DNA from: a virus
Strand: one strand, 5' to 3'
DNA: 41,498 nucleotides
Virus record (IMG/VR): IMGVR_UViG_3300036832_000123
Location: 1 to 41,498 of that record
In this document: piece by piece, positions 2,933-20,834 of the stretch
Layout: each line of letters opens with the position of its first letter
Position numbering within the stretch: the first letter of the stretch is position 1
The notes under the pieces: model-generated
Database searches by the model: none
Told to the model about the DNA's origin: nothing
Seen by the model: only the letters and a program-made list of their open reading frames with translations
Position numbers and translations under genes: made by a program

Positions 2933-3166
2933 GTGAAGAAGTACAAGGCAGTCATCAAGCCGAAGGATGGCATACCATCTGACGACTACGACAGCACCCT
3001 GCTCCTTATGGAGCTGACCTTTACGGTCGGGCCGCAGTCACTCAAGACTCCTCAATCTATCGTCAGGAGCGCTCTCATGTCATTCCGCCTCTACAACTTC
3101 ATGGAAGTTATCTCACTTGAGGAGGTGCTACGTGACGGTCTACATCCCGACTCTGAGCCGGATTGA
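2933..3166 (+). CDS. hypothetical protein (77 aa)
   Basis: The start is uncertain. An ATG at 2921 would overlap the previous gene, while GTG at 2933 follows its stop by one base and has GGCGAG upstream, so GTG is preferred. The product begins MKKYKAVIKPKDG and has a strand-helix-strand character (SILRS-like helix, LYNFMEVISLEEVL). It overlaps the start of the glycosyltransferase-like gene by 35 bases. No family is recognised. Confidence 0.55.
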   Translation: MKKYKAVIKPKDGIPSDDYDSTLLLMELTFTVGPQSLKTPQSIVRSALMSFRLYNFMEVISLEEVLRDGLHPDSEPD

Positions 3167-3959
3167 AATGCTGCAAAAGACAGTTCCTCAATGGATTGCG
3201 CAGGACATGCCTATCCGGCTAGTCGTCGAGAAGCAGGAGTACCGGGAACACGCCAGACTCGTACGTGAGATGAGATGGGGCGAACAAGTAAGCATAGTCC
3301 AATTGCCGCTCTCCCATAAGGGCCTTGGGTACGCCCGCATGTACTGTGTCGAACATGCTAGCAAATCCGGCCTTGATGCTTTTATTATGTGTAATGATGA
3401 CTGTTACGTTAAGCCCAACTCCGACGCCTGGCTACTAATCGAGGAAGCCGAGAAATCAACCACTCTCGGCATAGGTGCTATGCGTCCACTCCTAAACCTT
3501 TTCACGGGTGGAGCCATATCCAGGAATCACGGGCCAATCCTATGTCCTGGTAGCTGGGGCCTTTTCGTATGGGGCCTTAATGTCAACAAGGCAATCGAAT
3601 TCGGGAACTATGATCCGAATCTTCATACGTACGCGGAAGATGTCGATCTGCTCTTTGAAGGTGTCAAGCACGGCATTCCATGGCAGATCCACTGTGATGT
3701 CGAGTACGTATCAGTGAACAAGCGATACGACAATGGAGGTTTTGAGGCCGTATACCGTAACAACATGGAGGCAAGGCTAGCGGCCGAACGTAAGTGTATG
3801 GATATCATGCGTGAACGCTGGCCGGATTACGTCAACCGTCCGGACAAGCCGGTTCGATTTTCCTGGCAGAAGATCCTGAATGATTACATACCGGACTGGA
3901 AGAAAGCGTCGGCTATCCACGGCGGATCTCTCGACTACCTGAAAGGAGGTGTCGCGTGA
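3132..3959 (+). CDS. glycosyltransferase-like protein, copy 1 of a tandem pair (275 aa)
   Basis: GTG at 3132 is preceded by GGAGGTG at 3121-3127 and matches the start of the paralogue downstream. The protein opens with MTVYIPTLSRIEML, and has VVEKQEYREHARLVRE, then GLGYARMYCVEHA, then an acidic IMCNDDCYV motif near residue 95. This is the layout of GT-A type nucleotide-diphospho-sugar transferases, where the Asp pair binds metal and the donor sugar. The order of motifs resembles the phage TET-associated glycosyltransferase (TAGT) group, which glycosylates modified DNA bases. That assignment is inference, since no TET/JBP oxygenase is visible in the window. The substrate could also be host surface polymer. 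Confidence 0.6.
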   Translation: MTVYIPTLSRIEMLQKTVPQWIAQDMPIRLVVEKQEYREHARLVREMRWGEQVSIVQLPLSHKGLGYARMYCVEHASKSGLDAFIMCNDDCYVKPNSDAWLLIEEAEKSTTLGIGAMRPLLNLFTGGAISRNHGPILCPGSWGLFVWGLNVNKAIEFGNYDPNLHTYAEDVDLLFEGVKHGIPWQIHCDVEYVSVNKRYDNGGFEAVYRNNMEARLAAERKCMDIMRERWPDYVNRPDKPVRFSWQKILNDYIPDWKKASAIHGGSLDYLKGGVA

Positions 3960-4798
3960 CTGTATATATCCCGACCCTGAGCAGGATCGAAATGCTACGC
4001 AGGACAACGATTCCTAACTGGCTCAAACAAGACATGCCTATCCGGCTAGTAGTCGAACGCCACGAGTACCAGGAGCACGCTAAGCTGGTACGGGAGATGA
4101 AATGGGAGGATGTCCACGTTCTGCCGGCACCACTCTCCGGCAAAGGAATCGGGTATGCCCGCAAGTACTGCGTAGAGCACGCCCGCGAAAGTGGTCTTGA
4201 TGCCATGATCATGAGTAATGATGACTGCTACGTCAACCCCAGCTCCGACGCCTGGCTGCTTATAGATGAAGCCGAGAAGCCAACTACTCTAGGCATTGGC
4301 GCCACACGTTCCCTCCATGATAGGTTCACGGGCGGCGCGATCTCAAGGAACAGCGGGCCTATCCTCTGCCCCGGCGGCTGGGGCTTCATGCTATGGGGCA
4401 TGAACGTCAAGAACGCGCTCAAGGTCGGCAATTACGATCCGGCCCTGACTATTTTCGGTGAAGACTTCGAGCTAGCCTTTGAAGGCATCAAGCGCGGAAT
4501 TCCATGGCAGGTACATTGCGATGTAAAGTTCACCGCGGCCAACAAACGATATGACAAGGGCGGTATCGAGAGTAAGTACAGGAACAAGCTAGAAGCAAGG
4601 CTAGCGGATGAACGCCGGTGTATGGCCATCGTCCGCGAGCGCTGGTCAGAATACATCAACCCTCCGGACAAGCGTACCAGGATTGCCTGGCAGCAGCTCT
4701 ATACCGACCTTATCCCAGACTGGAAGAAGGGCTCTGCTATGCACGGTGGATCTCTCGATTACTTCAACAACAAGGAAGTCGAACAGGAGAGCAAGTAA
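3956..4798 (+). CDS. glycosyltransferase-like protein, copy 2 of a tandem pair (280 aa)
   Basis: GTG start at 3956 overlaps the stop of copy 1 (GTGA) and has AGGAGGTG upstream. It is clearly paralogous to copy 1 along its whole length: MTVYIPTLSRIEML at the start, the shared QDMPIRLVVE segment, the NDDCYV metal-binding-like motif near residue 90, FTGGAISRN, and a matching C-terminus (IPDWKK, HGGSLDY). Differences cluster around residues 110-160, including a second acidic motif (FGEDFELAFEG here, YAEDVDLLFEG in copy 1). The two copies may have diverged in acceptor or donor, or work as a heterodimer. The family assignment (GT-A fold, possibly TAGT) is inferred from motifs only. Confidence 0.6.
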   Translation: MTVYIPTLSRIEMLRRTTIPNWLKQDMPIRLVVERHEYQEHAKLVREMKWEDVHVLPAPLSGKGIGYARKYCVEHARESGLDAMIMSNDDCYVNPSSDAWLLIDEAEKPTTLGIGATRSLHDRFTGGAISRNSGPILCPGGWGFMLWGMNVKNALKVGNYDPALTIFGEDFELAFEGIKRGIPWQVHCDVKFTAANKRYDKGGIESKYRNKLEARLADERRCMAIVRERWSEYINPPDKRTRIAWQQLYTDLIPDWKKGSAMHGGSLDYFNNKEVEQESK

Positions 4799-4916: not shown

Positions 4917-5390
4917 ATGATGCCAGTGAAACGCCCGTCCTGGGATGAGTACTTCCTTGGCGTAGCTAGGGCAATATCCGCGCGAGCAGACTGTACGCGC
5001 CGCTTGGTAGGAGCAATCCTCACCGACCCCGTAACTCACGACATCCTCTTCACCGGGTACAACGGAGCACCGCGAGGCGAGCCCGGCTGTCTGACCGCAG
5101 GTGCCTGTCCGCGCGGACAACACTACGAGATAACCACAATGCCATACCCAACTTGTTGTGCCTGCGGGAATGAATGGCCGTGCCACCTCTCGGCTGAATC
5201 CGGCGCGGACTATGACGTCGGTACCGGTCTCTGTATCGCTATCCACGCCGAAGAAAACGTCCTGCTAGTCGCCGGACGCGCCGCATCGGGAAAGCACATG
5301 TACGTTACCCACAAACCATGTCATATGTGCATGCGCCTAATCAACGGAGCAGGAATACCAAGAGTCATATGGCCCGGAGGCGAGGCGTAA
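4917..5390 (+). CDS. deoxycytidylate (dCMP) deaminase
   Basis: Predicted to convert dCMP to dUMP in the cytoplasm, supplying substrate for the ThyX encoded at 14475. The zinc-dependent cytidine/dCMP deaminase signature is complete: HAEEN (catalytic Glu and zinc His) near residue 105 and PCHMCMRLI near residue 133 with the two zinc cysteines. An N-terminal CTRRLVGAILTD segment and an additional Cys/His-rich loop (CCACGNEWPCH) are typical of the dCMP deaminase branch. Its length of 157 aa is normal. Tandem ATGs at 4917 and 4920 are both possible starts after AAGGA. Confidence 0.9.
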   Translation: MMPVKRPSWDEYFLGVARAISARADCTRRLVGAILTDPVTHDILFTGYNGAPRGEPGCLTAGACPRGQHYEITTMPYPTCCACGNEWPCHLSAESGADYDVGTGLCIAIHAEENVLLVAGRAASGKHMYVTHKPCHMCMRLINGAGIPRVIWPGGEA

Positions 5391-5398
5391 ACCAAGAC

Positions 5399-5428
5399 TA
5401 GACTGACCGTTCCTCCATAGGGTATAAT
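5399..5428 (+). promoter_or_regulatory. promoter: TAGACT-N18-TATAAT, possibly giving a leaderless mRNA
   Basis: TAGACT (5399-5404), preceded by GAC, is followed by an 18-base spacer ending CATAGGG and a perfect TATAAT (5423-5428). The ATG of the downstream HNH gene is at 5435, only 6 bases beyond the -10 box. Transcription would therefore start at or next to the A of the start codon and give a leaderless message, a start type that actinobacteria use well. Confidence 0.7.
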
Positions 5429-5434
5429 AGAGAT

Positions 5435-5869
5435 ATGAACGCGAAAATCGGAGCCGTCGCAAAGAGATGTGGTGATTGTAACAAGACACTAGACCATCGC
5501 AACAAGTCCGGATTCTGCCGGAAGTGTTCGCCAAAGAATACGCGAACCGGACCTAATCACTGGAACTGGGGAGGAGATGGATATGGTTACGTCAAGATTC
5601 ATAGACGTGTAGTGCGCAGTTATGGTTACGCTCGGGAACATCCCTGCGTAGACTGCTGGGGCGATGCTGAAGACTGGTCATGGGTACATGGCACTGATCC
5701 GGCTAACATTATGAATTATGTGCCTCGTTGCAAGAAATGCCATAGTATGTATGATAAAGCTAGGCTAGGTGCCAAGCATACGGAAAGCACCAAGCAAAAG
5801 ATGTCGGAAAACGCTAAGCAGAGAAGCAGAAGGGCAAATGGTCAATTTGAACGCCGTAGTAACGACTAA
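5435..5869 (+). CDS. HNH homing endonuclease with NUMOD3-like tail (144 aa)
   Basis: A probable free-standing DNA endonuclease. Zinc-type cysteine pairs occur at the start (CGDCNK, CRKC), and the core holds CVDC ... WSWVHG ... NYVPRCKKCHSMYD, the HNH motif with its structural zinc. Residues about 112-132 (AKHTESTKQKMSENAKQRSR) match the NUMOD3 DNA-binding module of intron-type homing endonucleases. Codon use is more AT-rich than its neighbours (ATGGTTACG, AATTATGTG), which suggests recent transfer. It overlaps the start of the helicase by 32 bases and takes the first start codon after the promoter at 5399-5428, so it probably inserted at the 5' end of the helicase gene. Confidence 0.8.
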   Translation: MNAKIGAVAKRCGDCNKTLDHRNKSGFCRKCSPKNTRTGPNHWNWGGDGYGYVKIHRRVVRSYGYAREHPCVDCWGDAEDWSWVHGTDPANIMNYVPRCKKCHSMYDKARLGAKHTESTKQKMSENAKQRSRRANGQFERRSND

Positions 5870-7775
5870 CGGCAAAAAGATCATGGCTCGAATCGACTAC
5901 GCTGGCGGCCAGGGCCCAAAGGCCGCTAAGCGCGTCCCAGGTGCGAAAGCTGAATGGGACAAGACCGTAACACCAAACATATTCAAGGGCTGGAGCTATC
6001 CGCTCTCGATGGATACCTGCCGGGCTCTGCGGAATGAGTTCGGAGATGACCTGAAGGTCGCCGAGCCGCTCGCTGAATGGGCGCGCGCGGAGATCGCCAA
6101 GGAACGTAGCCTTGAGGAATTCCGCGAAGAGCAGCTAGCGAACGTCAACTTCCCCCGCGTACAGGAGGAAGCTCCGCAGCTCTTCAAGGCGATGATGAAC
6201 CGCAAGTACCAGCTCGCCGGTACGGCGTTCATGCTCGCCGGTAAGCAGGTTATCCTCGGTGATGACCCCGGACTCGGCAAGACGCTCCAGGCGCTAGCCG
6301 CCATGATCGAGAGCGATGCGAAAGAAATCCTGGTGGCATGCCGGCGAACCGCGACCCGGACAGTCTGGGAACGCGAAACGCTACGCTGGACCGACATCAA
6401 GCCGTTCGTCGCCCAGGGTGGTCGTCCCGAGCGCGAGGCGGCGATGAAGGCATACGACGCCTACCAAGGTGGCCGGAAGATGCTGATCGTCAACATCGAG
6501 ATGGTCCGCGCTAAGCGTCAGGAGATATGCCCGGCTACGCCGAATGGCGTCTGCGCTTTTGGCGAACGCCCGCCCGCCGGACATATCAAGCACGAGTACC
6601 ACTCGACACCGGAATGGCCGTTCCTGTCGCAGGGAACTATGTGGGACGCGATCGTCTTTGACGAGTCGCATAACCTGCTCGCCTCTACCGCGAACATTCA
6701 AAGCAAGCGCATAACGCAGGCGAGGTTCGGCGCGGTACAGATTCGTAAGCGCCTGCGTCCCGGCGGCCTAGCCATAGCGCTCTCGGGCACTCCGTTCCGT
6801 TCCAAGCTTGAGAAGGGATGGGGAACGCTCAATTGGCTACGCCCCGACGTGTTCGGAAGCTACTGGCGCTGGGCCGAGACGTACTTTGGAGTCGAGCAAG
6901 GCACATACGGCAAGATAGTCGGCGGTGGCGACAAGGTGCTCGAACCACGCAACCCCTCGGCCTGGGACCATATGCTGAGGCCGTACTACCTGAAGCGTAC
7001 CAAGGCGGAAGCTGCCCCCGACTTGCCACCTATCACGTTTGCCGGGACACCGATCGATCCCGATGATGAGAACAGTCCGTGCTACGTCCAACTGGATATG
7101 TCGCCCGAGCAGTCTAAGGCGTACTGGCAGATGGAGTCCCTCGCGGAAGCTACCCTGGATACGGGTACCATTACCGCGACCGGCGTACTCGCCGAGATCA
7201 CGCGCCTGCGCCAGTTCGCTACCGCGAACCATATCCACGGCGAGGGTAGGCAACATCTAGTGCCCACTCTCCCGTCGAACAAGATCGAGTGGCTCATCGA
7301 CTTCATGCAGGAGCGCCAGGAAACCGGCCAGAAGGTGGTTATCGCTAGTAGCTTCACGAGCATGGTCGAGCTAGCGGCCGACACGATCCGGCACCAATGT
7401 AACATGGAAGTCCTAACCCTAACCGGCGCCACGTCCGACCGCGACCGCGTAGACCTTGTGGCGCGGTTCCAGGACACGAACGATAGCCTCCAGGTAGTAT
7501 GTCTGAACCGGGACGCGGGTGGTGAATCGATTACCCTGGACGCGGCCGACGAGATGGTGATCCTTGATATGCCGTGGATCTCCGACCGCGACGAACAGCT
7601 GATCTCTCGTATTCACCGTGTCTCCAGGATACATAAGGTGACGATCTATCGCCTGGTATCTATCGATACGATCGACCAGTGGCTCGCTAACCTCAACGAC
7701 GAGCAGCGCGAGGTGGTAAAGAACGCTAGCCCCAGGAAGATAAGTGAACTCGCCGTCGCAGGAAGTCCCTCGTGA
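5838..7775 (+). CDS. SNF2/SWI2-type superfamily 2 DNA helicase/translocase (645 aa)
   Basis: An ATP-dependent DNA translocase or helicase, probably for phage replication or recombination. Walker A is GDDPGLGKT at about residue 141, the DEAD-box motif II is DESHN at about 275, followed by ALSGTPF (motif III). The C-terminal half has VVIASSF, NRDAGGESITLDAADEMVILD and the arginine-finger motif QLISRIHRVSR at about 587. ATG 5838 with AAGGG upstream is preferred. ATG 5883 is the alternative, and the frame is also open farther upstream inside the HNH gene. The N-terminal 120 residues form a HARP-like or accessory segment. The stop overlaps a GTG start (GTGA at 7772). Confidence 0.88.
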   Translation: MVNLNAVVTTNGKKIMARIDYAGGQGPKAAKRVPGAKAEWDKTVTPNIFKGWSYPLSMDTCRALRNEFGDDLKVAEPLAEWARAEIAKERSLEEFREEQLANVNFPRVQEEAPQLFKAMMNRKYQLAGTAFMLAGKQVILGDDPGLGKTLQALAAMIESDAKEILVACRRTATRTVWERETLRWTDIKPFVAQGGRPEREAAMKAYDAYQGGRKMLIVNIEMVRAKRQEICPATPNGVCAFGERPPAGHIKHEYHSTPEWPFLSQGTMWDAIVFDESHNLLASTANIQSKRITQARFGAVQIRKRLRPGGLAIALSGTPFRSKLEKGWGTLNWLRPDVFGSYWRWAETYFGVEQGTYGKIVGGGDKVLEPRNPSAWDHMLRPYYLKRTKAEAAPDLPPITFAGTPIDPDDENSPCYVQLDMSPEQSKAYWQMESLAEATLDTGTITATGVLAEITRLRQFATANHIHGEGRQHLVPTLPSNKIEWLIDFMQERQETGQKVVIASSFTSMVELAADTIRHQCNMEVLTLTGATSDRDRVDLVARFQDTNDSLQVVCLNRDAGGESITLDAADEMVILDMPWISDRDEQLISRIHRVSRIHKVTIYRLVSIDTIDQWLANLNDEQREVVKNASPRKISELAVAGSPS

Positions 7776-7927
7776 GCAGCGAAGAGAAGCGCCTGGAGCG
7801 ACACCGGCGCTACAACCAGAGTGCTAAGGGCCAGAAGCGGAACAAGCGCTACGAGCAGAAACATCCCGAACGTAGAGTTAGATGGGAGGAAGCCCGAAAT
7901 GCCATCAGACCAAGAACCGGCTGGTAA
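7772..7927 (+). CDS. very basic small protein (51 aa)
   Basis: The GTG at 7772 lies in a GTGA overlap with the helicase stop, and the stop is TAA at 7925-7927. The peptide starts MSSEEKRLERHRRYNQS and is dominated by Arg, Lys, Glu and Tyr, with an RYNQSAKGQKRNKRY segment like the short repeats of many actinophage Arg-rich proteins. It is probably nucleic-acid-binding. The coupling overlap and the compositional pattern support it being real, although it overlaps the next gene by 29 bases. Confidence 0.55.
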   Translation: MSSEEKRLERHRRYNQSAKGQKRNKRYEQKHPERRVRWEEARNAIRPRTGW

Positions 7928-8093
7928 AACAGAGTTCGAGCTAGACAATCTCTGGTACGAGTCCTTCACGGACAAGGTCCGTTCCTTCGGCAAAAAGTGG
8001 CCAGACCCCTTGACGGCCTACGAGTACGACCAGTGCGAAGTCTACGCCGATTCCATCGTACGCCGGCCCAAGAGCGAAGAATTCAATGGTTAA
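7899..8093 (+). CDS. small acidic hypothetical protein (64 aa)
   Basis: ATG at 7899 follows a GGGAGGA ribosome-binding site about 8 bases upstream. The frame is open farther upstream, but no better start exists. The protein (MPSDQEPAGKTEFELDN...) is acidic and Trp/Tyr-containing, probably a single helical domain. It overlaps the next gene by 8 bases. No family is recognised. Confidence 0.6.
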   Translation: MPSDQEPAGKTEFELDNLWYESFTDKVRSFGKKWPDPLTAYEYDQCEVYADSIVRRPKSEEFNG

Positions 8094-8850
8094 CATCCCG
8101 CGCCAGGCGAACGTCACCGAGATCCGTAAGGAGTTGATGGACAAGTACGGCTACACCTACGACGACGTCAATGACGTTCTTTTCTACACGGCCGATAACA
8201 AAAAGAGTACCGGCCGGGATAGTGAATGGAAAACTCCGGACGCGGAAGGATTCATTACTGTCCGTTACTACGGCCTAAGCCGTTTCACAATCGAAGATTT
8301 CCGAGAATTCACCGGAAAAAGACTAGCCAAACATCCCGATTTGTCGTATAATCGGGAGGGTAAGGGACTCCCTATTAGGGAACGCATAGAGAAAGGTACC
8401 AGGCATATGCCACCTGCGAAAGGTCGCCGGGCTGCAACGGCACCGCCGCCGCCTGCCGAGCCAGAAGCCAACGGACAGGTTGACTTCCAGAAGTACATCA
8501 GCAAGGACCTGTCGCCGACGATGGCGGACTACGTGGAGTGGTTCGAGCAGGAGGTCGCCTCCCTGGACGACATCCCGGTCGACAAGATCCTCGTGCTCGG
8601 CGTGTCGTTGTACGGCCACTTCCAGAAGTCCGACTTCAACATCGACCGCCGGGAAGCCCGGCGTGCGAATCGCGCGCCTGCGCCCGAGCCTGAGCCCGAG
8701 CCGGCCAAGCCCGCCCGTGGCGGCCGTGGTCGCAGCCGCGCCGCTGCGCCCGAGCCTGAGCCCGAGACTGAGCCCGAGCCCGCAGCCCGTCGTGGCCGCG
8801 GACGCCCCAGCCGTGCCGGTACCAGGGCCGGCGCAGAGGCTCCGTACTAA
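8086..8850 (+). CDS. Two-part protein: unknown N-terminal region joined in frame to a pre-exonuclease conserved protein (254 aa)
   Basis: From ATG 8086 the frame gives 254 residues. Residues 1-107 form a soluble mixed region of no known family. Residues from 108 (MPPAKGRRAA, ATG at 8407) look like a separate gene that actinophages often carry just before the Cas4-type exonuclease, with VDFQKYISKDLSPTMADYVEWF and HFQKSDFN motifs. The last 55 residues are low-complexity: Pro-Glu repeats alternating with GRGR blocks, similar to the SSB tail at 11412. A promoter at 8324-8352 lies inside the frame. Either the gene is a fusion, or two products are made, the shorter being 147 aa (8407-8850). Its role is unknown. 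Confidence 0.65.
   Translation: MVNIPRQANVTEIRKELMDKYGYTYDDVNDVLFYTADNKKSTGRDSEWKTPDAEGFITVRYYGLSRFTIEDFREFTGKRLAKHPDLSYNREGKGLPIRERIEKGTRHMPPAKGRRAATAPPPPAEPEANGQVDFQKYISKDLSPTMADYVEWFEQEVASLDDIPVDKILVLGVSLYGHFQKSDFNIDRREARRANRAPAPEPEPEPAKPARGGRGRSRAAAPEPEPETEPEPAARRGRGRPSRAGTRAGAEAPY
8324..8352 (+). promoter_or_regulatory. internal promoter: TAGCCA-N17-TATAAT
   Basis: GAC-TAGCCA (8324-8329) is followed by a 17-base spacer and TATAAT (8347-8352), then CG. The GACTAG start of the -35 region, the spacing and the CG after -10 match the sites at 5399-5428 and 39568-39596. It lies inside the 8086-8850 frame, 54 bases before the ATG at 8407, and would allow separate expression of the C-terminal protein and the genes after it. 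Confidence 0.5.
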
Positions 8851-8859
8851 CCACCCAAC

Positions 8860-8909
8860 GTCCCAGGCGGTCGGCTCCCCACCACCCCAGTGGCCCGGCC
8901 GTCTGGGAC
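8860..8909 (+). terminator. long-stem hairpin in the gap before the second HNH gene
   Basis: GTCCCAGGCGG (8860-8870) can pair with CCGTCTGGGAC (8899-8909) over 11 positions with one G-T wobble, leaving a 28-base C-rich loop. No U-run follows, so it is not a classical rho-independent terminator. It could still attenuate transcription or mark the end of the original transcript, since it lies between the 8086-8850 gene and the HNH/exonuclease locus. Confidence 0.4.
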
Positions 8910-8925
8910 CCCACAAGGGGAAGTC

Positions 8926-9375
8926 ATGGCGAGTGATCTGCCTACGCTCCGGACGAGCGAGCGCGGTACTGGAATTGGGCGCCCGATAACATCGCAGACC
9001 AAAAGCGCTCAGACGCAACGCTGTAGGCGTGCTAGGGGATCTGCTAGTTTGCGGTGGTGTGTTCGCTGTATTGAGGATGGAATCAACAAACGTGCTCTAG
9101 ACTGGGCCCATATTCACGGAGAGCTAGGAACTGATCCTTGGGCTGATTTTGTCCCTTTGTGTCGTAGCTGTCATATGAAGTACGACAACTCTGAATCAAG
9201 ATGGGGCGATCCAGAATATCGGAAACGTCTATCCGAATCGCTACGCAGGAAAGCTATCGAACAATGGAAAGATCCCGATATGCGCAGGAGGATGTCAGAG
9301 GGACGAAAGCATAGTATCGAAACACTTAACTGGATCGGTCGGCGTCCAAGAGGTGAAAGGGGGCGATTCAAATGA
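8926..9375 (+). CDS. HNH homing endonuclease whose first residues copy the exonuclease start (149 aa)
   Basis: ATG 8926 follows AAGGGGAAG. Residues 5-14 (LPTLRTSERG) are identical to residues 5-14 of the protein starting at 9372, though the DNA differs at many third positions. The rest is an HNH endonuclease: WCVRC, LDWAHIHGELGTDPWADFVPLCRSCH (key residues His and the Cys pairs), then a basic helical tail with repeated YRKRLSESLRRK/MRRRMSEGRK motifs like NUMOD DNA-binding modules. Codon use is more AT-rich than in neighbours. The stop overlaps the ATG at 9372 (ATGA). It probably inserted into the exonuclease 5' end. Confidence 0.8.
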   Translation: MASDLPTLRTSERGTGIGRPITSQTKSAQTQRCRRARGSASLRWCVRCIEDGINKRALDWAHIHGELGTDPWADFVPLCRSCHMKYDNSESRWGDPEYRKRLSESLRRKAIEQWKDPDMRRRMSEGRKHSIETLNWIGRRPRGERGRFK

Positions 9376-10354
9376 CAGCGGAACTTCCCACTCTCAGGAC
9401 TTCAGAGCGTGGTGTATTTAAGCGCTGTCCGTTACGCAGCGCTGGTGGTGGGAATTCCGGATGGGCTACAGGCAGCGCTCCCCACAAGCTGACGCGCTCT
9501 GGTTCGGCGTAGGCATACATGAAGCTCTCGCCCATTGGTATCTGAAGGGTACACGCCGAGGCAAGCATCCGGCCGATACCTGGGAAGAGTGGACACGCGA
9601 AGAAATTGCGTTCGCTAAGACATATCTTGATGAGACGTTTGATGAGCCCGTCTGGATTGACGCGGTAGAACTTGGCGCGGCTATGCTTGAAGAGTATGTC
9701 GAAGTCTACGGCCAGGACCCCGAATGGGATATCATCTCCATAGAGCAGCCATTCCGCGTCCGCATTCTGCGAGAGGGAAAGCCGGTCGCCTACTTCACCT
9801 CTCGCTGGGACGGCGTACTCCGCAATCTTGAGGACGGCAAGATATGGCTTCTGGAGAACAAGTCCGCGGCCCAGATCGTTACCGCCTACCTTGAGCTAGA
9901 TGATCAGGGAGGTTCCTACTGGGCCGTAGCATCACAACTTCTCCGTGCTAAGGGAATCCTGAAGCCGGGAGAGCATATCGAAGGCATCATCTACAACTTC
10001 CTGCGGAAAGCATTCCCTGATGAACGTCCGCAAAATGAAGACGGTCTACGTCTTAACAAAGACAATTCCATTTCCAAGAGGCAGCCTGTCAAACTATTCC
10101 ACCGAGAGCCAATGGATCGCTCTCCAAAAGAACAAGCCACTCAGCTCGCGCGGATAGCTGATGAAGTCACCGTGATGAACGCAATCCGCGAAGGCACTAT
10201 CCCTATCACTAAGACGCCGACGAAAGACTGCCCGCGGTGCCCATTCTGGGTGCCGTGTACGCTTCACGAGCGCGGTAGCGAAGCGTATAAGTCAGTTCTA
10301 AACTCCAACTACCGACAGATAGACCCGTATGCGGACAATAGAAAGAGTGCGTGA
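9372..10354 (+). CDS. Cas4/RecB-type PD-(D/E)XK exonuclease with an interrupted reading frame
   Basis: An Fe-S exonuclease for DNA end processing, the partner of the Sak4-like ATPase downstream. From ATG 9372 the frame reads LPTLRTSERGVFKRCP, the usual start of these actinophage proteins, and then runs out of frame to a TAG near 9510. The body (WWWEF from 9443, GVGIHEALAHWY, RWDGVL, LLENKSAA with the catalytic Asp and ENK, and the CPRCPFWVPC cluster) lies in the -1 frame, open from 9422, with a possible ATG at 9461 giving 297 residues. Removing 5 bases (TTACG, 9432-9436) would restore CPQRWWW. The cluster needs the N-terminal Cys, so an intact protein would require frameshifting. It may be a damaged gene. 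Confidence 0.75.
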
Positions 10355-11286
10355 TGCCACCAACAAGAGGTCTGCGAGGCGCAAGGCCAGGAACGCAGAC
10401 AAGGCAATCAGCGAAGCAGTCAAGGGAAGCGCCGCTCTCGATGATGGAGGCGGACGTTGAGATCCATGAGGAGGATCTATCTACGTCCGGCAAGACCGCG
10501 CCGGTCAACATCCTGGTCCACGGGCCGTCCGGCCACGGCAAGACTCTCCTAGCCGGTGGCGCGGCCGACGGTACGCGCCCGGTGACCTTCCTGTCTACCG
10601 AGACGGAAGGGGTAGCCAGTGCCCGCGCCGTTGGTAGTCAGGCCAAGCTATGGCGCTGTCCTTCCTGGGAACACGCCGTCGCCGGGGTCAAGAAGGCAGA
10701 GCAAGAGTTCACGATCGAAGACTGGATGGTTGTCGATTCCGGGACCAAGATGCAAGAAATGTACATGCGGTGGATTCTGGAGCGTGAGAACCAGATCAAC
10801 CCGCAGCGCGACCTCGACATCCCGGCGATTCAGAACCACCAGAAATACCAGAACGGATTCAAGCGCTGGACCGACCGCCTGATCGACGGCAACTTCAACG
10901 TGATCTTCATCACTACGAGCATGACCGCCGACGACGCCGAAGGTGAGGAGCGTATCATCCCCCACCTCCTGGGCAAGAAAGGCGAGATATCTGACTATGT
11001 CAGCTCTCAGTTCTCGGTCGCCCTGTACTATTCAGTGGCGCGCGAGTCCCGTGAGATGCGCGGCGCGATCCTACGCCGTGCTCTTGCTCAGCCGTACCCT
11101 CCCTGGTACGCCAAGGACCGTTATATGGCCCTCGGGCGGTCCTGGGACGTGGAGGATGGCGACTACTTCGCCATGTCGCGAATGATCGAAGCAATCGACA
11201 AGGCAAGGGGAGCCGCAAATGCCCAGGAAACAAGTGCCCGGCGCTCCGTCCCTCGCCAGACTCGTCGATCCCGGAACGCAGTCTAG
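10351..11286 (+). CDS. Sak4-like RecA-fold ATPase (phage recombinase/annealing factor, 311 aa)
   Basis: Predicted single-strand annealing or strand-exchange ATPase working with the SSB at 11412. Walker A is HGPSGHGKT (about residues 56-64), the Walker B-like segment is MVVDSGTKM, and the FITTSMT segment fits the sensor region of the Sak4/RecA-like family. GTG 10351 and ATG 10354 both overlap the exonuclease stop. A later ATG at 10441 would remove a Lys/Arg/Gln-rich, poorly conserved start of 30 residues and cannot be excluded. The C-terminal 25 residues are low-complexity and share DNA with the next small gene. Confidence 0.8.
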   Translation: MMPPTRGLRGARPGTQTRQSAKQSREAPLSMMEADVEIHEEDLSTSGKTAPVNILVHGPSGHGKTLLAGGAADGTRPVTFLSTETEGVASARAVGSQAKLWRCPSWEHAVAGVKKAEQEFTIEDWMVVDSGTKMQEMYMRWILERENQINPQRDLDIPAIQNHQKYQNGFKRWTDRLIDGNFNVIFITTSMTADDAEGEERIIPHLLGKKGEISDYVSSQFSVALYYSVARESREMRGAILRRALAQPYPPWYAKDRYMALGRSWDVEDGDYFAMSRMIEAIDKARGAANAQETSARRSVPRQTRRSRNAV

Positions 11287-11410
11287 GGACTGGCTTAGGA
11301 AGCACGTCGAGAAACGTCACTTCGGAATCCGGTTCGTCACGATAGGAGAGCATAACGCAAATCACCGGCTCGAACAAGAACACCTAGATCACACTCACGA
11401 AGGGACATGA
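11219..11410 (+). CDS. small basic hypothetical protein (63 aa)
   Basis: ATG 11219 has AAGGGGAG upstream and overlaps the last 68 bases of the ATPase gene in another frame. The protein (MPRKQVPGAPSLARLV...) is basic at first and His-rich at the end (RHFGIRFVTIGEHNANHRLEQEHLDHTHEGT), which could be a metal-binding tail. It ends one base before the SSB start codon. Its placement in an unbroken operon supports a real gene, but no family is recognised. Confidence 0.5.
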   Translation: MPRKQVPGAPSLARLVDPGTQSRDWLRKHVEKRHFGIRFVTIGEHNANHRLEQEHLDHTHEGT

Positions 11411-11411
11411 C

Positions 11412-12248
11412 ATGGTACGCATTCGGCAGGAAGATGTCGAAGACCTTGACGTCGATGAACTCGACGCACTCGAATACTCCACCGAGACGTTCGACAGCTA
11501 CGACGGCGAAGTGCCGCCCAAGGATCTCGAACTCACCGGCTATACCAAGAAGATGTGGTGGACCCGCTCCCAGGCGGGCGACCCCATGTTCAAGGTTCTC
11601 TGGGTCGCGGCCGACAACGACGGCGATCTGGAAGAGTACAACGACTGCCCCTTCTGGCTCAACTACGCCCTCAACGGCGGCTCCAAGTTCCGGTGGGCAC
11701 CGTTCCTGGATGTCTACGGCATCACGCTCCGACAGATCAAGAAGCGCGAGATCGACCTGGCCGACAAGGACGACCAGAACGGCGCGCCCATCAACAAGAT
11801 CGGCAGCTTCCGTCCCGGTGAGGAGAACGATGAAGCCTGGTGCCGCATCATTACCGGCAGCGAGCGCTACAACGGCGAGCCGAAGCCGGCCATCGCGGAA
11901 TGGCTTCCGTACGAGGCAGGCGACGAGGCAGATGACGAGCCCGACGACGACTATGAGGAGGACGAGCCAGAAGACGAGCCAGAGCCAGAGCCTGAGCCCG
12001 AGCCGGCGCGCGGACGCGGACGGAGCGCAGGCCGTGGCACGGCCCGGAGCGCGCCTGCAAAGGCCGAGCCGGCGACCGCGCGTAGGGGAACCCGCGCGAC
12101 CGCGCCGACCCCGGAAAAGCCCGCTCCGGCCCGTGGAGCGCGGAGTGCCCGAGTCGATAAGGGTGCTTCTGCAGAAACCAAGGTAGCGGCCACGCGCGGG
12201 CGCGGGCGCGGGCGCGCGCAAGGCAGCAACGACGACCCGCCGTTTTAA
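11412..12248 (+). CDS. single-stranded DNA-binding protein with classical C-terminal tip (278 aa)
   Basis: Likely binds ssDNA during replication and recombination and recruits partners. The N-terminal 170 residues form the domain seen in actinophage SSB-type proteins next to Sak4 (MWWTRSQAGDPMFKVLWVA, CPFWLNYALN, RWAPFLDVYG). A long disordered tail follows: Asp/Glu-rich, then Pro-Glu repeats, then Arg-Gly blocks. The protein ends NDDPPF, the acidic-Pro-Pro-Phe tip that lets bacterial SSBs bind their partners. The tail resembles that of the 8086-8850 protein. ATG 11412 follows GAAGGGA. Its longer overlapping frame from 11407 is an Arg/Ser/Thr-rich shadow. Confidence 0.8.
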   Translation: MVRIRQEDVEDLDVDELDALEYSTETFDSYDGEVPPKDLELTGYTKKMWWTRSQAGDPMFKVLWVAADNDGDLEEYNDCPFWLNYALNGGSKFRWAPFLDVYGITLRQIKKREIDLADKDDQNGAPINKIGSFRPGEENDEAWCRIITGSERYNGEPKPAIAEWLPYEAGDEADDEPDDDYEEDEPEDEPEPEPEPEPARGRGRSAGRGTARSAPAKAEPATARRGTRATAPTPEKPAPARGARSARVDKGASAETKVAATRGRGRGRAQGSNDDPPF

Positions 12249-17650: not shown

Positions 17651-18586
17651 ATGAGGTACGTCAGCCTTCACCACCACTCGACCTTCAGCCACGGTGATGG
17701 GCACAAGCCTCCTGCGGCACACGTAGCCCGTGCGGCCGAACTAGGCTACACGGCTATGGCTCTGACCGAACATGGGGGCGTATCCTCTCACTTCCAATTC
17801 GAACAAGCAGCCGTGAAAGTAGGTGTGAAACCTCTCTTTGGGCTCGAAGCATACACCGGGCCTACGGACGAGAATAAGAGCCAATGGAAATACCACCTGA
17901 CTATCCTCGCAGGGAGTAATGATGGATACCGGAATCTCAACCAGCTCGTCACTCAGTCTTGGAAAGATCATCACTACCATCCTACGGTCAGTGGAGAGAA
18001 TCTGCAGAGAAATTCTGAAGATCTTTACATTCTATCTGGATGCACTGGTTCTATGCTCGCCTGCGCGCTCGTGGGAGGTAAGGGAATCAATGTACCTACA
18101 TCAAAGGATGGGTATGGATGGGATGACGCAAGACGCATCATCAGCCGTTTTCACCGGCTATTTGGGGAGCGTTACTTCCTTGAAGTCCAGCCCTTCTGGG
18201 AACTTGAGAAGACCTGCCGGATCAATCCAGCTTACGAGAAGCTCTCCAGGGAAACTGGATGCCCTCTTGTTGCCACCTGCGATGTCCATTACCCCCGACC
18301 CGAGGATGGAGAGATGCAGGCCATCCTACACGCAGTACATCGAGGCAATCAGAGCATCGACGATGCGATGAGATCGTGGAATTACAATGTCCCCATGACA
18401 TTGCCCGAGTCCGACAAGGTGCTAGGCGAGCGCCTCATGAAGACTGGCCTGTCGCGGAACGCTGCCTGGGAAGCTATACTCAACAGTGCTTGGATAGCTG
18501 AACAGTGTACGGTAACCCTGCCGAAAGCCGAGCGCCTAGAATACCCGATAAGCGACAATGACTGGAGGCAGTGGAATGGAAGGTAG
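17651..18586 (+). CDS. PHP domain protein of a split DNA polymerase III alpha subunit (311 aa)
   Basis: The N-terminal PHP half of a DnaE-type polymerase. The metal-binding motifs are present in order: LHHHSTFSHGDG (residues 6-17), ALTEHGG (about 37-43), FGLEAY, and CDVHYPRPED (about 210), so it may retain metal-dependent phosphatase or structural function. The end of the frame (YPISDNDWRQWNGR) is followed by the polymerase gene in another frame, starting 11 bases before this stop. This is a clean two-gene division, not one broken gene: each has its own ribosome-binding site and start. Confidence 0.85.
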   Translation: MRYVSLHHHSTFSHGDGHKPPAAHVARAAELGYTAMALTEHGGVSSHFQFEQAAVKVGVKPLFGLEAYTGPTDENKSQWKYHLTILAGSNDGYRNLNQLVTQSWKDHHYHPTVSGENLQRNSEDLYILSGCTGSMLACALVGGKGINVPTSKDGYGWDDARRIISRFHRLFGERYFLEVQPFWELEKTCRINPAYEKLSRETGCPLVATCDVHYPRPEDGEMQAILHAVHRGNQSIDDAMRSWNYNVPMTLPESDKVLGERLMKTGLSRNAAWEAILNSAWIAEQCTVTLPKAERLEYPISDNDWRQWNGR

Positions 18587-20834
18587 TCGTCCAGAAGCAG
18601 AGAAGCTACTATGGGAATGGCTCCGGTTCGGGTGGCGTTACCGGAACATATCCTCACTTCCGCGCCAGGAACAGGACTGGTACGCTGAGCGTATCAAGTA
18701 TGAGATGCACCTAATTCTGGAGCGTGGTCTTGCGGATTTTTTTCTCTTCACGAGCGACACGATTAGGTGGGGCAAAGATCACGGCATTCCCTTTGGGCCG
18801 GGGCGAGGCAGCACGGCCGCTTCAGTCGTCGCCTACCTACTCCGGATAACCGAGATTCCCCCGCATAAGTATAAAGGCATGATCTTTGAGCGGTTCCTGG
18901 ACATCACGCGACCAGATCCCCCAGACATTGATGTAGACGTTTCCGATGAGGAAAGGCATGTTGTCTGGGATTACCTGGAGGGTAAGTATGGCGCGGATAA
19001 GGTCGGCCATATCGGGAACTTCGTGAGATACCGCGGCAAGAATTCCCTCCAGGATGTCACCAAGGTTTACAATATCCCTATCTACGTTCGGGAGACTGTC
19101 GGCAACCTCCTGATAGAGCGCTCCGGTGGAGACTCCCGGTTTAGCTCAACCCTTGCCGACACATTCGACCTATTCCCTGAAGCGCAGAAGATACGAGACG
19201 AGTACCCTGACATCGCAAAGGCCTGCCGGCTCGAAGGTGACGTGCGCGGAATGTCCGTCCACGCGGCCGGTCTGGTTATAGCGAACAGCCCGCTTACCGA
19301 CGTTTGCGCCGTGTACGAGAGGGACGGCGTTAAGGTTATGTCGATTGATAAGTACGATGCCGAGTACGCGGGTGCCCTAAAACTTGACTTCCTTGGCCTA
19401 TCTACCATGGGAATGATATCACGGTGTATCCGGATGGCCGGCCTAACCCTGGAGGATCTCTATGCGATTCCCGACACTGACCCTAGGACAATCGAGGTAT
19501 TCCGTACCGGGGACGTTGTTGGTGTATTTCAGTTTGAGGGTAGAGCTACACGCCTCGTCAACCGAGACGTACGTCCAGATCACTTCCTGCATATCTCAGA
19601 CATCAATGCGCTATCGCGTCCTGGACCGCTGTTTTCAGGGCAAACTGCTGCGTACGTGGACGTACGGCACGGAAGAAAGCACGCTGAGAGGCTTCATCCT
19701 ATCGTTGATGAAGTCACCATGGAGACGTACGGGCAGATCATCTACCAGGAACAGATCCTCCGAATCCTGCGAGACATTGGAGGATTCGACTGGTTCTCTG
19801 TAAGTCAGATCCGGCGGATCATCTCAAAGAAAATGGGCGAGGCCGCGTTCCAGATGTCGTATCAGCAGTTCGCCGACGGAGCCAAGACTCTCCACGGTAT
19901 CGACGCGGAACTAGCCGACAAGATCTGGAAGCGCCTCGTGACTTCCGGAACCTACTCCTTCAACATCGCCCACTCGATATCATACTCCATGCTCGCTTTC
20001 TGGACGGCCTGGCTAAAAGCCAACTATCCAATCGAGTTCTACGCAGCATCCCTACAGAAGGCAGTTAAGGCCGAGTCGCAGTTCCGGCTTATGCGTGACG
20101 CCCTCGCTCACTCGATCGACGTTAAGCCGCCATCTCTAGGACACTCCCGCGCCACCTGGCGGCCGGTAGCGGGAGTCGGCCTAGTCGCCGGGTGGCAGCA
20201 GATCCCAAAGGTAGGCGAGAAAACCGCACTACGTATTGATGAGCTGGCCGGCGACTACGGCTTTGACGACTGGGTAGAACTCCGCGCCATCCCCGGCATA
20301 GGCGACAAGACGATCGCGCGGATGGAGGAATGGACTCTGGCCCGTGACCCGTTTGGCTTGTACCGGACAGAGAAACGCCTGGCATCTGTTCGGCGGTTCC
20401 TAAAGGGACAGGGCAAGGGAAGTGCTCCCCTCCCTACCAAAGATGGCCTTCAGCTTGCGGAAATGAAGGTGCCGCCCAGGATTCCGGGCAAATGGGTTCA
20501 GGGTCCGCGCGTTGTCTATATGGGTATGGTCGGCAAGGTAGAGTACAAGGACGTTGTGGAAGACGAGAGATCCCGCAGCGGCAAGGAAGTAGAGGAAATC
20601 CTCAAGACGCTGAAGCGCCCGGACCTAGTTAAGCGGGCCACGCTTCACTGTTACGACGTAAGCGATGAGGAGGTTTACGCGCGGATCAATAGGTGGAAGT
20701 TTCCCCATCTCCAGAAACAACTGGCCATGATTCACCCGAACCGAGACGTTGTGGTTATCCTAGGCAATCGCATCGCCGGCTTCGGTACCCCGGTAACGGT
20801 AGAGAGGATCTGGGTTTTTGATCCCGACAGCTAA
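18576..20834 (+). CDS. DNA polymerase III alpha catalytic subunit without the PHP domain (752 aa)
   Basis: The replicative polymerase of the phage. ATG 18576 has GGAGGCAGTGGA upstream. Palm motifs are GPGRGSTAAS (about residue 74), PDIDVDVSDEER (about 115, two catalytic Asp) and LKLDFLGLSTM (about 270, third Asp). The fingers region includes GVFQFEG, FLHISDINALSRPGPL and VSQIRRIISKKMG. Then come NIAHSISYSMLAFWTAWLKANYP, a helix-hairpin-helix region (IPGIGDKTIARMEEW, near 575) and an OB-fold-like end (MGMVGKVEYKD). A PHP domain is missing here because it is encoded by the gene before. No proofreading domain is visible. Confidence 0.88.
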   Translation: MEGSRPEAEKLLWEWLRFGWRYRNISSLPRQEQDWYAERIKYEMHLILERGLADFFLFTSDTIRWGKDHGIPFGPGRGSTAASVVAYLLRITEIPPHKYKGMIFERFLDITRPDPPDIDVDVSDEERHVVWDYLEGKYGADKVGHIGNFVRYRGKNSLQDVTKVYNIPIYVRETVGNLLIERSGGDSRFSSTLADTFDLFPEAQKIRDEYPDIAKACRLEGDVRGMSVHAAGLVIANSPLTDVCAVYERDGVKVMSIDKYDAEYAGALKLDFLGLSTMGMISRCIRMAGLTLEDLYAIPDTDPRTIEVFRTGDVVGVFQFEGRATRLVNRDVRPDHFLHISDINALSRPGPLFSGQTAAYVDVRHGRKHAERLHPIVDEVTMETYGQIIYQEQILRILRDIGGFDWFSVSQIRRIISKKMGEAAFQMSYQQFADGAKTLHGIDAELADKIWKRLVTSGTYSFNIAHSISYSMLAFWTAWLKANYPIEFYAASLQKAVKAESQFRLMRDALAHSIDVKPPSLGHSRATWRPVAGVGLVAGWQQIPKVGEKTALRIDELAGDYGFDDWVELRAIPGIGDKTIARMEEWTLARDPFGLYRTEKRLASVRRFLKGQGKGSAPLPTKDGLQLAEMKVPPRIPGKWVQGPRVVYMGMVGKVEYKDVVEDERSRSGKEVEEILKTLKRPDLVKRATLHCYDVSDEEVYARINRWKFPHLQKQLAMIHPNRDVVVILGNRIAGFGTPVTVERIWVFDPDS

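Follow-up and report, generated by a model that had tools for sequence, protein, structure and literature searches.

A frame-breaking insert next to an HNH gene in a phage exonuclease: a candidate miniature homing and bypass cassette

How can a phage make a conserved nuclease from a gene that carries an HNH endonuclease gene at its start and, only 20 codons into a second copy of that start, a 5-nt break of the reading frame? We addressed this question in the 41,498-nt stretch of a virus record (the window, whose positions serve as coordinates throughout) and in relatives of its exonuclease. Comparison of these sequences points to a probable answer: the HNH gene and the insert would form one homing cassette, in which the insert disrupts the target of the endonuclease encoded beside it while ribosomes skip the extra nucleotides, a miniature relative of the phage T4 mobA/gene 60 arrangement.

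An HNH gene and a doubled exonuclease start

The HNH open reading frame (ORF) opens at ATG 8926 with MASDLPTLRTSERGTG... and the second exonuclease start (start2) lies at ATG 9372 (Table 1), both as read from the sequence. The earlier note on this DNA had remarked that the two share the residues LPTLRTSERG, as they indeed do, with 9 of the 30 nucleotides differing between the copies. It had also proposed that the HNH gene was inserted at the exonuclease start and that this start was rebuilt from a related phage allele. Both proposals gain support, the allele being a diverged one: the closest relative overall, L002 (85%), has neither the HNH gene nor the insert and reads MADLPTLRTSERATFKRC at the position equivalent to the resident start (start1), and start2 begins with ATGACAGCGG, like L013. 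The frame is broken after CCG 9429-9431 and the conserved frame is back at CAG 9437 (QRWWWEFRMGYRQRSP), TTACG thus dividing KRCP from QRWWW. Removal of TTACG had been expected to give the family motif CPQRWWW; intact relatives, which lack TTACG, all read ...LPxLRTSERxxFKRC(P)xRWWxEYR... in one frame. An assembly error is excluded, as contig 3300036822_000043 (L014), from another dataset, has CGCTGTCCG-TTACG-CAACGCTGG at the identical position.

Table 1 Features of the HNH–exonuclease locus in the window
Feature	Position	Strand	Remarks
HNH endonuclease ORF, 149 aa	8926..9375	+	Translation begins at the native exonuclease start; the stop codon TGA shares nucleotides with the second ATG (ATGA)
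start1, resident exonuclease start MASDLPTLRTSERGT	8926..8970	+	Now an in-frame fusion to the HNH protein
Putative ribosome-binding site GAAAGGGGGCG 5' of start2	9355..9365	+	Assigned from its position in the sequence
start2, replacement exonuclease start, 20 codons MTAELPTLRTSERGVFKRCP	9372..9431	+	Holds the conserved Cys; ends at the proposed take-off codon CCG 9429-9431
TTACG insert	9432..9436	+	TTA right 3' of the take-off codon; near-matched landing triplet ACG 9434-9436
Exonuclease body, Cas4-like PD-(D/E)XK	9437..10354	+	From CAG, QRWWWEFR...; three C-terminal Cys near 10231-10260
First ATG 3' of the break in the body frame	9461..9463	+	Alternative start weighed in the earlier note

The HNH ORF matches the PHROG 144 HNH family (E 5e-8), a Pfam HNH match (E 0.023) lying below the cut-off. 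It contains the zinc-binding core CxxC...CxxCH, whose Cys and His are invariant in A3, and by this core it is a predicted HNH homing endonuclease, with relatives in L092, L043 and Gordonia phages. A second HNH ORF (5435-5869) lies upstream of the helicase gene, where no duplicated start was seen; nor is start duplication obvious at the other HNH loci found with A3 (L132, L134-L143). We rejected an intron: an Rfam search of 5000-11500 gave no match at E<=1, neither to a group I intron nor to any other RNA family, and fusing start1 with the downstream piece would fail to re-create FKRCP. Searches of the window DNA against known phages returned no similarity, and no relative was found among prophages in genome contigs. 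Elsewhere in the window, tandem similar glycosyltransferase-like ORFs (3117-3959 and 3956-4798; TVYIPTLSRIEML...) apparently represent a duplication.

The exonuclease body matches PF12705 (E 3e-9) and an intact relative matches the PHROG 1218 exonuclease, a PDB sequence search with A1 giving no match. The nearest solved folds in Foldseek are AdnAB (E 1e-7) and the Cas4-type ACE1 (E 3e-6). Four cysteines (C18, C284, C287 and C293) are invariant over 23 exonuclease relatives, which bears out the earlier view that the N-terminal Cys in FKRC belongs with three near the C terminus. Based on the PD-(D/E)XK fold and these four residues, the protein is predicted to be Cas4-like, with Fe-S cluster binding and DNA degradation as putative functions. 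It has the motif, the invariant cysteines and the fold of Cas4-family phage exonucleases (PF12705 / PHROG 1218), but its coding sequence is interrupted. AlphaFold modelling of L002, an intact relative (pLDDT 86.5), places helices 9-17 and 19-27 next to the break site, one on each side, so that both pieces would belong to the nuclease core.

Short inserts in exonuclease and DnaE genes of related phages

Among 131 distinct exonuclease genes, nine are frame-broken, every one within codons 16-21, and no colinear frame break occurs in the other ~300 codons; with breaks confined to codons ~16-21, the break in the window is not due to chance. The inserts are of four kinds: TTACG (2 genes), TTAGGCTG, TT and AGATCCG (5 isolated Gordonia phages). 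Three metagenomic contigs besides the window are affected: L014, whose body is 85% identical to that of L013, carries TTACG at the same codon junction as the window with no HNH gene upstream; L092 has an 8-nt insert at this junction (CCG-TTAGGCTG-CAA), directly 3' of a related HNH gene; and L046 reads GTA-TTT-TT-AAG at the break. The Gordonia phages Turuncu, GTE5, Skysand and Float294 read CCG-AGATCCG-CAA, with CAG instead of CAA in HubbaBubba, the identical insert being common to three Gordonia phage lineages. An HNH gene is present upstream of the exonuclease in Turuncu, GTE5 and HubbaBubba, and Skysand and Float294 have kept the insert beside a 69-aa HNH remnant. In occupied genomes, the native start continues in frame into the HNH gene (GAGCGCAAGG...); further on come a new ribosome site, start2 and then the insert. 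Flapper, GRU1, Dalilpop, WhoseManz and Commandaria, empty-site siblings, have neither HNH gene nor insert, and the empty-site exonuclease and DnaE genes examined (including L002, L013, Flapper, GRU1, Dalilpop, WhoseManz, Sadboi and LuckyLeo) consist of one uninterrupted frame.

The HNH family of the window cassette also led to a second target gene, DnaE. Intact Lambovirus DnaE opens with MRWVSLHTHSTFSYGDGYG. An HNH gene is annotated in Ranch, Patos and Xenia2, whose DnaE reads HTHSTFS-TAGGTGGCC-YGDG (9 nt, including UAG), and Erutan and NorManre showed the same DnaE span in the search; in Wojtek (HNH gene), OtterstedtS21, DoobyDoo and NovaSharks (HNH remnants), DnaE reads TAT-TGAC-GGC (4 nt, UGA). 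Both Gordonia DnaE inserts, TAGGTGGCC and TGAC, thus contain a stop codon and lie 3' of an HNH gene or its remnant. Within the window's phage group, the DnaE genes of the L013 contig and of L043 read CAC-TTACAC-CA(C/T), and that of the L014 contig, just 3' of an HNH gene, GGT-TTACTCGGC-GGA. Across both target genes, an HNH gene is found directly 5' of the broken gene in the window, L092, Turuncu, GTE5, HubbaBubba, Wojtek, Ranch, Xenia2, Patos and the L014-contig DnaE, and inserts have no adjacent HNH gene in L014, L046, L013 and L043. The L002 contig has an HNH gene upstream of DnaE, yet no insert was found near its DnaE start. Both observations count against the cassette proposed here.

Some further candidates were set aside. 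DnaE of the window lies in two overlapping ORFs (17651-18586 and 18558-20834), which we rejected as a further frame break: in relatives, 350-740 nt lie between the two cistrons, which makes a split DnaE the natural state for this phage group. In a DnaE pattern scan, four of the seven matches (L263, L264, L265 and L268) were one unrelated sequence, and that in L267 was a chance match across the start of an intact DnaE.

The earlier note had taken the 5 nt for a by-product of a single HNH insertion, a claim that is not supported in this form. The insert is a recurrent and separately inherited part of the cassette: L014 has it without the HNH gene, Skysand and Float294 have it beside no more than HNH remnants, it has analogues in DnaE, and inserts of the window's phage group start with the otherwise avoided codon TTA.

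TTA avoidance and the reading of UUA

Genes of the window (GC 56%) contain 3 TTA codons in 12,328 by raw count, against 69 expected, and as all three sit in ORF ends that look non-coding, we judge none of them credible. Across the conserved genes in five related records, the only TTA codons are two DnaE inserts and 6 that lie in these doubtful ORF ends, and the sole TTA in 68,247 codons of further, partly overlapping loci is a third DnaE insert. Against this practical absence, TTA is the first codon after the break in five of five different inserts of the window's phage group. TTA also takes the place of the stop codon in four exonuclease genes, with extensions of 28-59 codons, other sense codons at gene ends adding at most 6. 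Avoidance of TTA, together with its occurrence at stop positions, makes UUA look unreadable, or nearly so, for these phages. At the exonuclease ends of L003, L008, L018 and L019, TTATG replaces the TAATG or TGATG of other genes, as though UUA acted as a stop.

In Yara, a syntenic Streptomyces phage, TTA occurs once in 7,518 codons, and bldA is described as encoding the only UUA tRNA of Streptomyces coelicolor and as unnecessary for growth (PMC2000904). Taken together, these parallels suggest a Streptomyces-like host for the window's phage group, and the codon avoidance, with UUA at gene ends, suggests that the uncultured host, probably an actinobacterium, treats UUA almost as a nonsense codon. 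By contrast, the insert in Gordonia exonucleases uses AGA, which is rare rather than forbidden (8 of 6,898 codons). The sole TTA of Yara (L274 865-1113, gene 37) follows GWG in an HNH gene, and GWG also precedes TTA in the Hau3 terminase. A putative gene of L248 (9855-10466) reads GIDPG-TTA-GGA-GGT, possibly a further TTA insert in a nuclease-like motif.

In the terminase of Streptomyces phage Hau3, a UUA-linked bypass with a regulatory role has reportedly been suggested, and we read its insert, GGC-TTACTCCGGT-AAG, directly in the sequence. As in the window, where the codon is otherwise avoided, UUA stands immediately 3' of the take-off codon, inside a conserved motif, and the Hau3 insert resembles that of the L014-contig DnaE; the terminase differs in being another gene with no HNH gene fused to its start, an HNH gene lying ~1.4 kb upstream. 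For the inserts led by TTA, the chief alternative is a comparable regulatory role: rather than conferring immunity, the insert would tie synthesis of a replication or recombination enzyme to the host UUA tRNA. The Hau3 likeness, the TTA at the head of every insert in the window's phage group and the rarity of TTA in Yara fit this reading, which we nonetheless consider unlikely, since Gordonia inserts carry AGA, UAG or UGA in place of UUA, inserts often accompany HNH genes at single sites and many siblings have no insert. A broader form of the immunity proposal is possible, if somewhat doubtful: UUA would be stop-like in the hosts of these soil phages, and UUA-led spacers that destroy an endonuclease target and are hopped by ribosomes would be a widespread immunity device of actinobacterial phages.

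Proposed translation across the inserts

The cassette, as we picture it, would have three parts: an HNH endonuclease ORF joined to the target gene's resident start codon, a replacement 5' end for that gene, and a very short insert inside strongly conserved codons. By interrupting the sequence that the cassette-encoded endonuclease recognizes, this insert would confer immunity. Strongly conserved codons are the usual targets of homing endonucleases. Because the inserts lie in such codons and travel with HNH genes, immunity may most simply account for them, as proposed for T4 gene 60. Ribosomes that have passed FKRCP would stall at the next codon (TTA in the window; AGA, UAG or UGA elsewhere), the peptidyl-tRNA would let go and re-pair a few nucleotides further 3', on or close to a triplet that matches fully or nearly, and reading would start again at CAG to give ...FKRCP-QRWWWEFR.... 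In the window, this would mean take-off at CCG with TTA in the A site, landing on ACG and resumption at CAG 9437.

Take-off and landing codons match perfectly in some genes (CCG/CCG in Gordonia, CAC/CAC in L236 and an overlapping TTT/TTT), are synonymous in GGT/GGC and are not perfectly matched in the window (CCG/ACG), L092 (CCG/CTG), Ranch (TCC/GCC) and Wojtek, which tells against the proposal. Bypassing can resume in any frame, is favoured by slow A-site codons and tolerates imperfect landing codons (PMC5009743).

Selection on the broken genes bears on whether both pieces are used. In pairs of genes sharing an insert, synonymous and nonsynonymous differences in the zero frame of start2 number 5/0, 9/3, 6/3 and, for the window and L014, 6.8/4.2, with no such bias in the two other frames (P 6e-4 to 0.02, from small counts in non-independent pairs and uncorrected for multiple pairs). 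That the start2 differences are mainly synonymous indicates that the broken genes still encode a selected protein. Codons that follow the break and precede any start are conserved as well (13/0 for L046 and L013; 9/0 for Turuncu and GTE5); the corresponding 14.2/10.8 for L014 and L013 includes some nonsynonymous changes just 3' of the break, and some post-break codon changes may be older than the break. With both stretches conserved, start2 and the body appear, as far as substitution patterns tell, to be translated as one functional protein. Of the outcomes that the earlier note had envisaged (a broken gene, a recoding site or a shorter start at ATG 9461), recoding is favoured, purifying selection on start2 in insert-sharing lineages being one of the grounds.

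Recoding could also take the form of ordinary programmed ribosomal frameshifting (-1 or +1), with the extra nucleotides partly translated. The inserts of the window, L014, L046 and L092 would all call for an identical net change of frame (+2, which amounts to -1), and CCG-A-GAT in Gordonia could be a +1 site with the rare AGA in the A site. Other inserts, however, either preserve the frame, as do those of 6 and 9 nt, one of which contains UAG, or need +1; no convincing slippery heptamer is seen in L092 or the window, and extra residues would be placed inside a conserved motif. We regard frameshifting as rather improbable: the insert lengths (2, 4, 5, 6, 7, 8 and 9 nt, in all phases), the in-frame stops and the slow codon or stop that follows take-off fit hopping better than any one type of frameshift.

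Production of the exonuclease from a downstream start (ATG 9461 or its equivalents), with start2 as a leftover, is more improbable still. Such starts were picked by GenBank annotators, an in-frame ATG lies just 5' of the break in L092, and DnaE of Ranch has GTG right 3' of UAG. Conversely, the protein sequence of start2 has stayed conserved since the break, both flanking helices are confidently predicted to be parts of the nuclease, and L014 has no Met equivalent to ATG 9461, its next in-frame ATG lying past the conserved GxGxH motif; L046, Turuncu and GTE5 likewise have no usable start between break and motif, which counts against the earlier idea that the exonuclease begins at ATG 9461. Least probable of all, and by a good way to be doubted, is that HNH insertion or faulty repair of a cut killed dispensable genes that are now decaying: indels at the presumed cut site could be end-joining scars and 1-3-nt repeats flank some inserts, but each gene has a single break and none elsewhere, synonymous bias holds on both sides of it, the same insert is kept in divergent phages, and the breaks affect plaque-forming isolates as well as DnaE, the replicative polymerase.

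The proposed immunity-and-bypass cassette shares with T4 mobA/gene 60 an HNH homing-endonuclease gene just upstream, an insert that lies close to where the next gene begins and is absent from relatives, and a proposed protection from the endonuclease (PMC3014915; PMC5009743). An HNH gene directly upstream is seen in the window, L092, the three Gordonia exonuclease loci and several DnaE loci, and HNH gene and insert are polymorphic, with intact empty-site siblings. Unlike in T4, the native start is fused to the HNH gene and duplicated, several genes are targeted and many independent insert sequences occur; the T4 insert has 50 nt versus 2-9 nt here (5 nt in the window), with no known stem-loop or nascent-peptide signal in our cases, and T4 ribosomes land on a matched GGA, whereas landing here is often only near-matched. 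The stop codon after take-off in gene 60 has its counterpart in Gordonia DnaE only (UAG or UGA), the window having TTA. Mitochondrial byp elements of the yeast Magnusiomyces capitatus are likewise short inserts in many genes, with an otherwise unused A-site codon and, in several cases, imperfectly matched codons, but they belong to mitochondria and number 81 (PMC5009743).

None of the papers covered by a literature search reports 2-9-nt, HNH-cassette-linked mini-inserts in exonuclease or DnaE genes. To our knowledge, functional bypassing in bacteria and phages comprises essentially one proven case, T4 gene 60, and the suggestion for Hau3. The inserts may thus represent a new, miniature form of the homing-endonuclease/bypass cassette, possibly with a new host decoding property behind it. 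With eight different inserts in two gene families, several of them in isolated Gordonia phages for which laboratory strains serve as hosts, the bypass, its minimal signals and the homing-immunity model are directly testable. Many of the broken genes carry wrong annotated starts or truncated annotation: in GenBank, the exonuclease of L116 and L117 and the DnaE of L224, L225, L227, L228 and L230 are annotated from downstream of the break, leaving gaps or truncated N termini.
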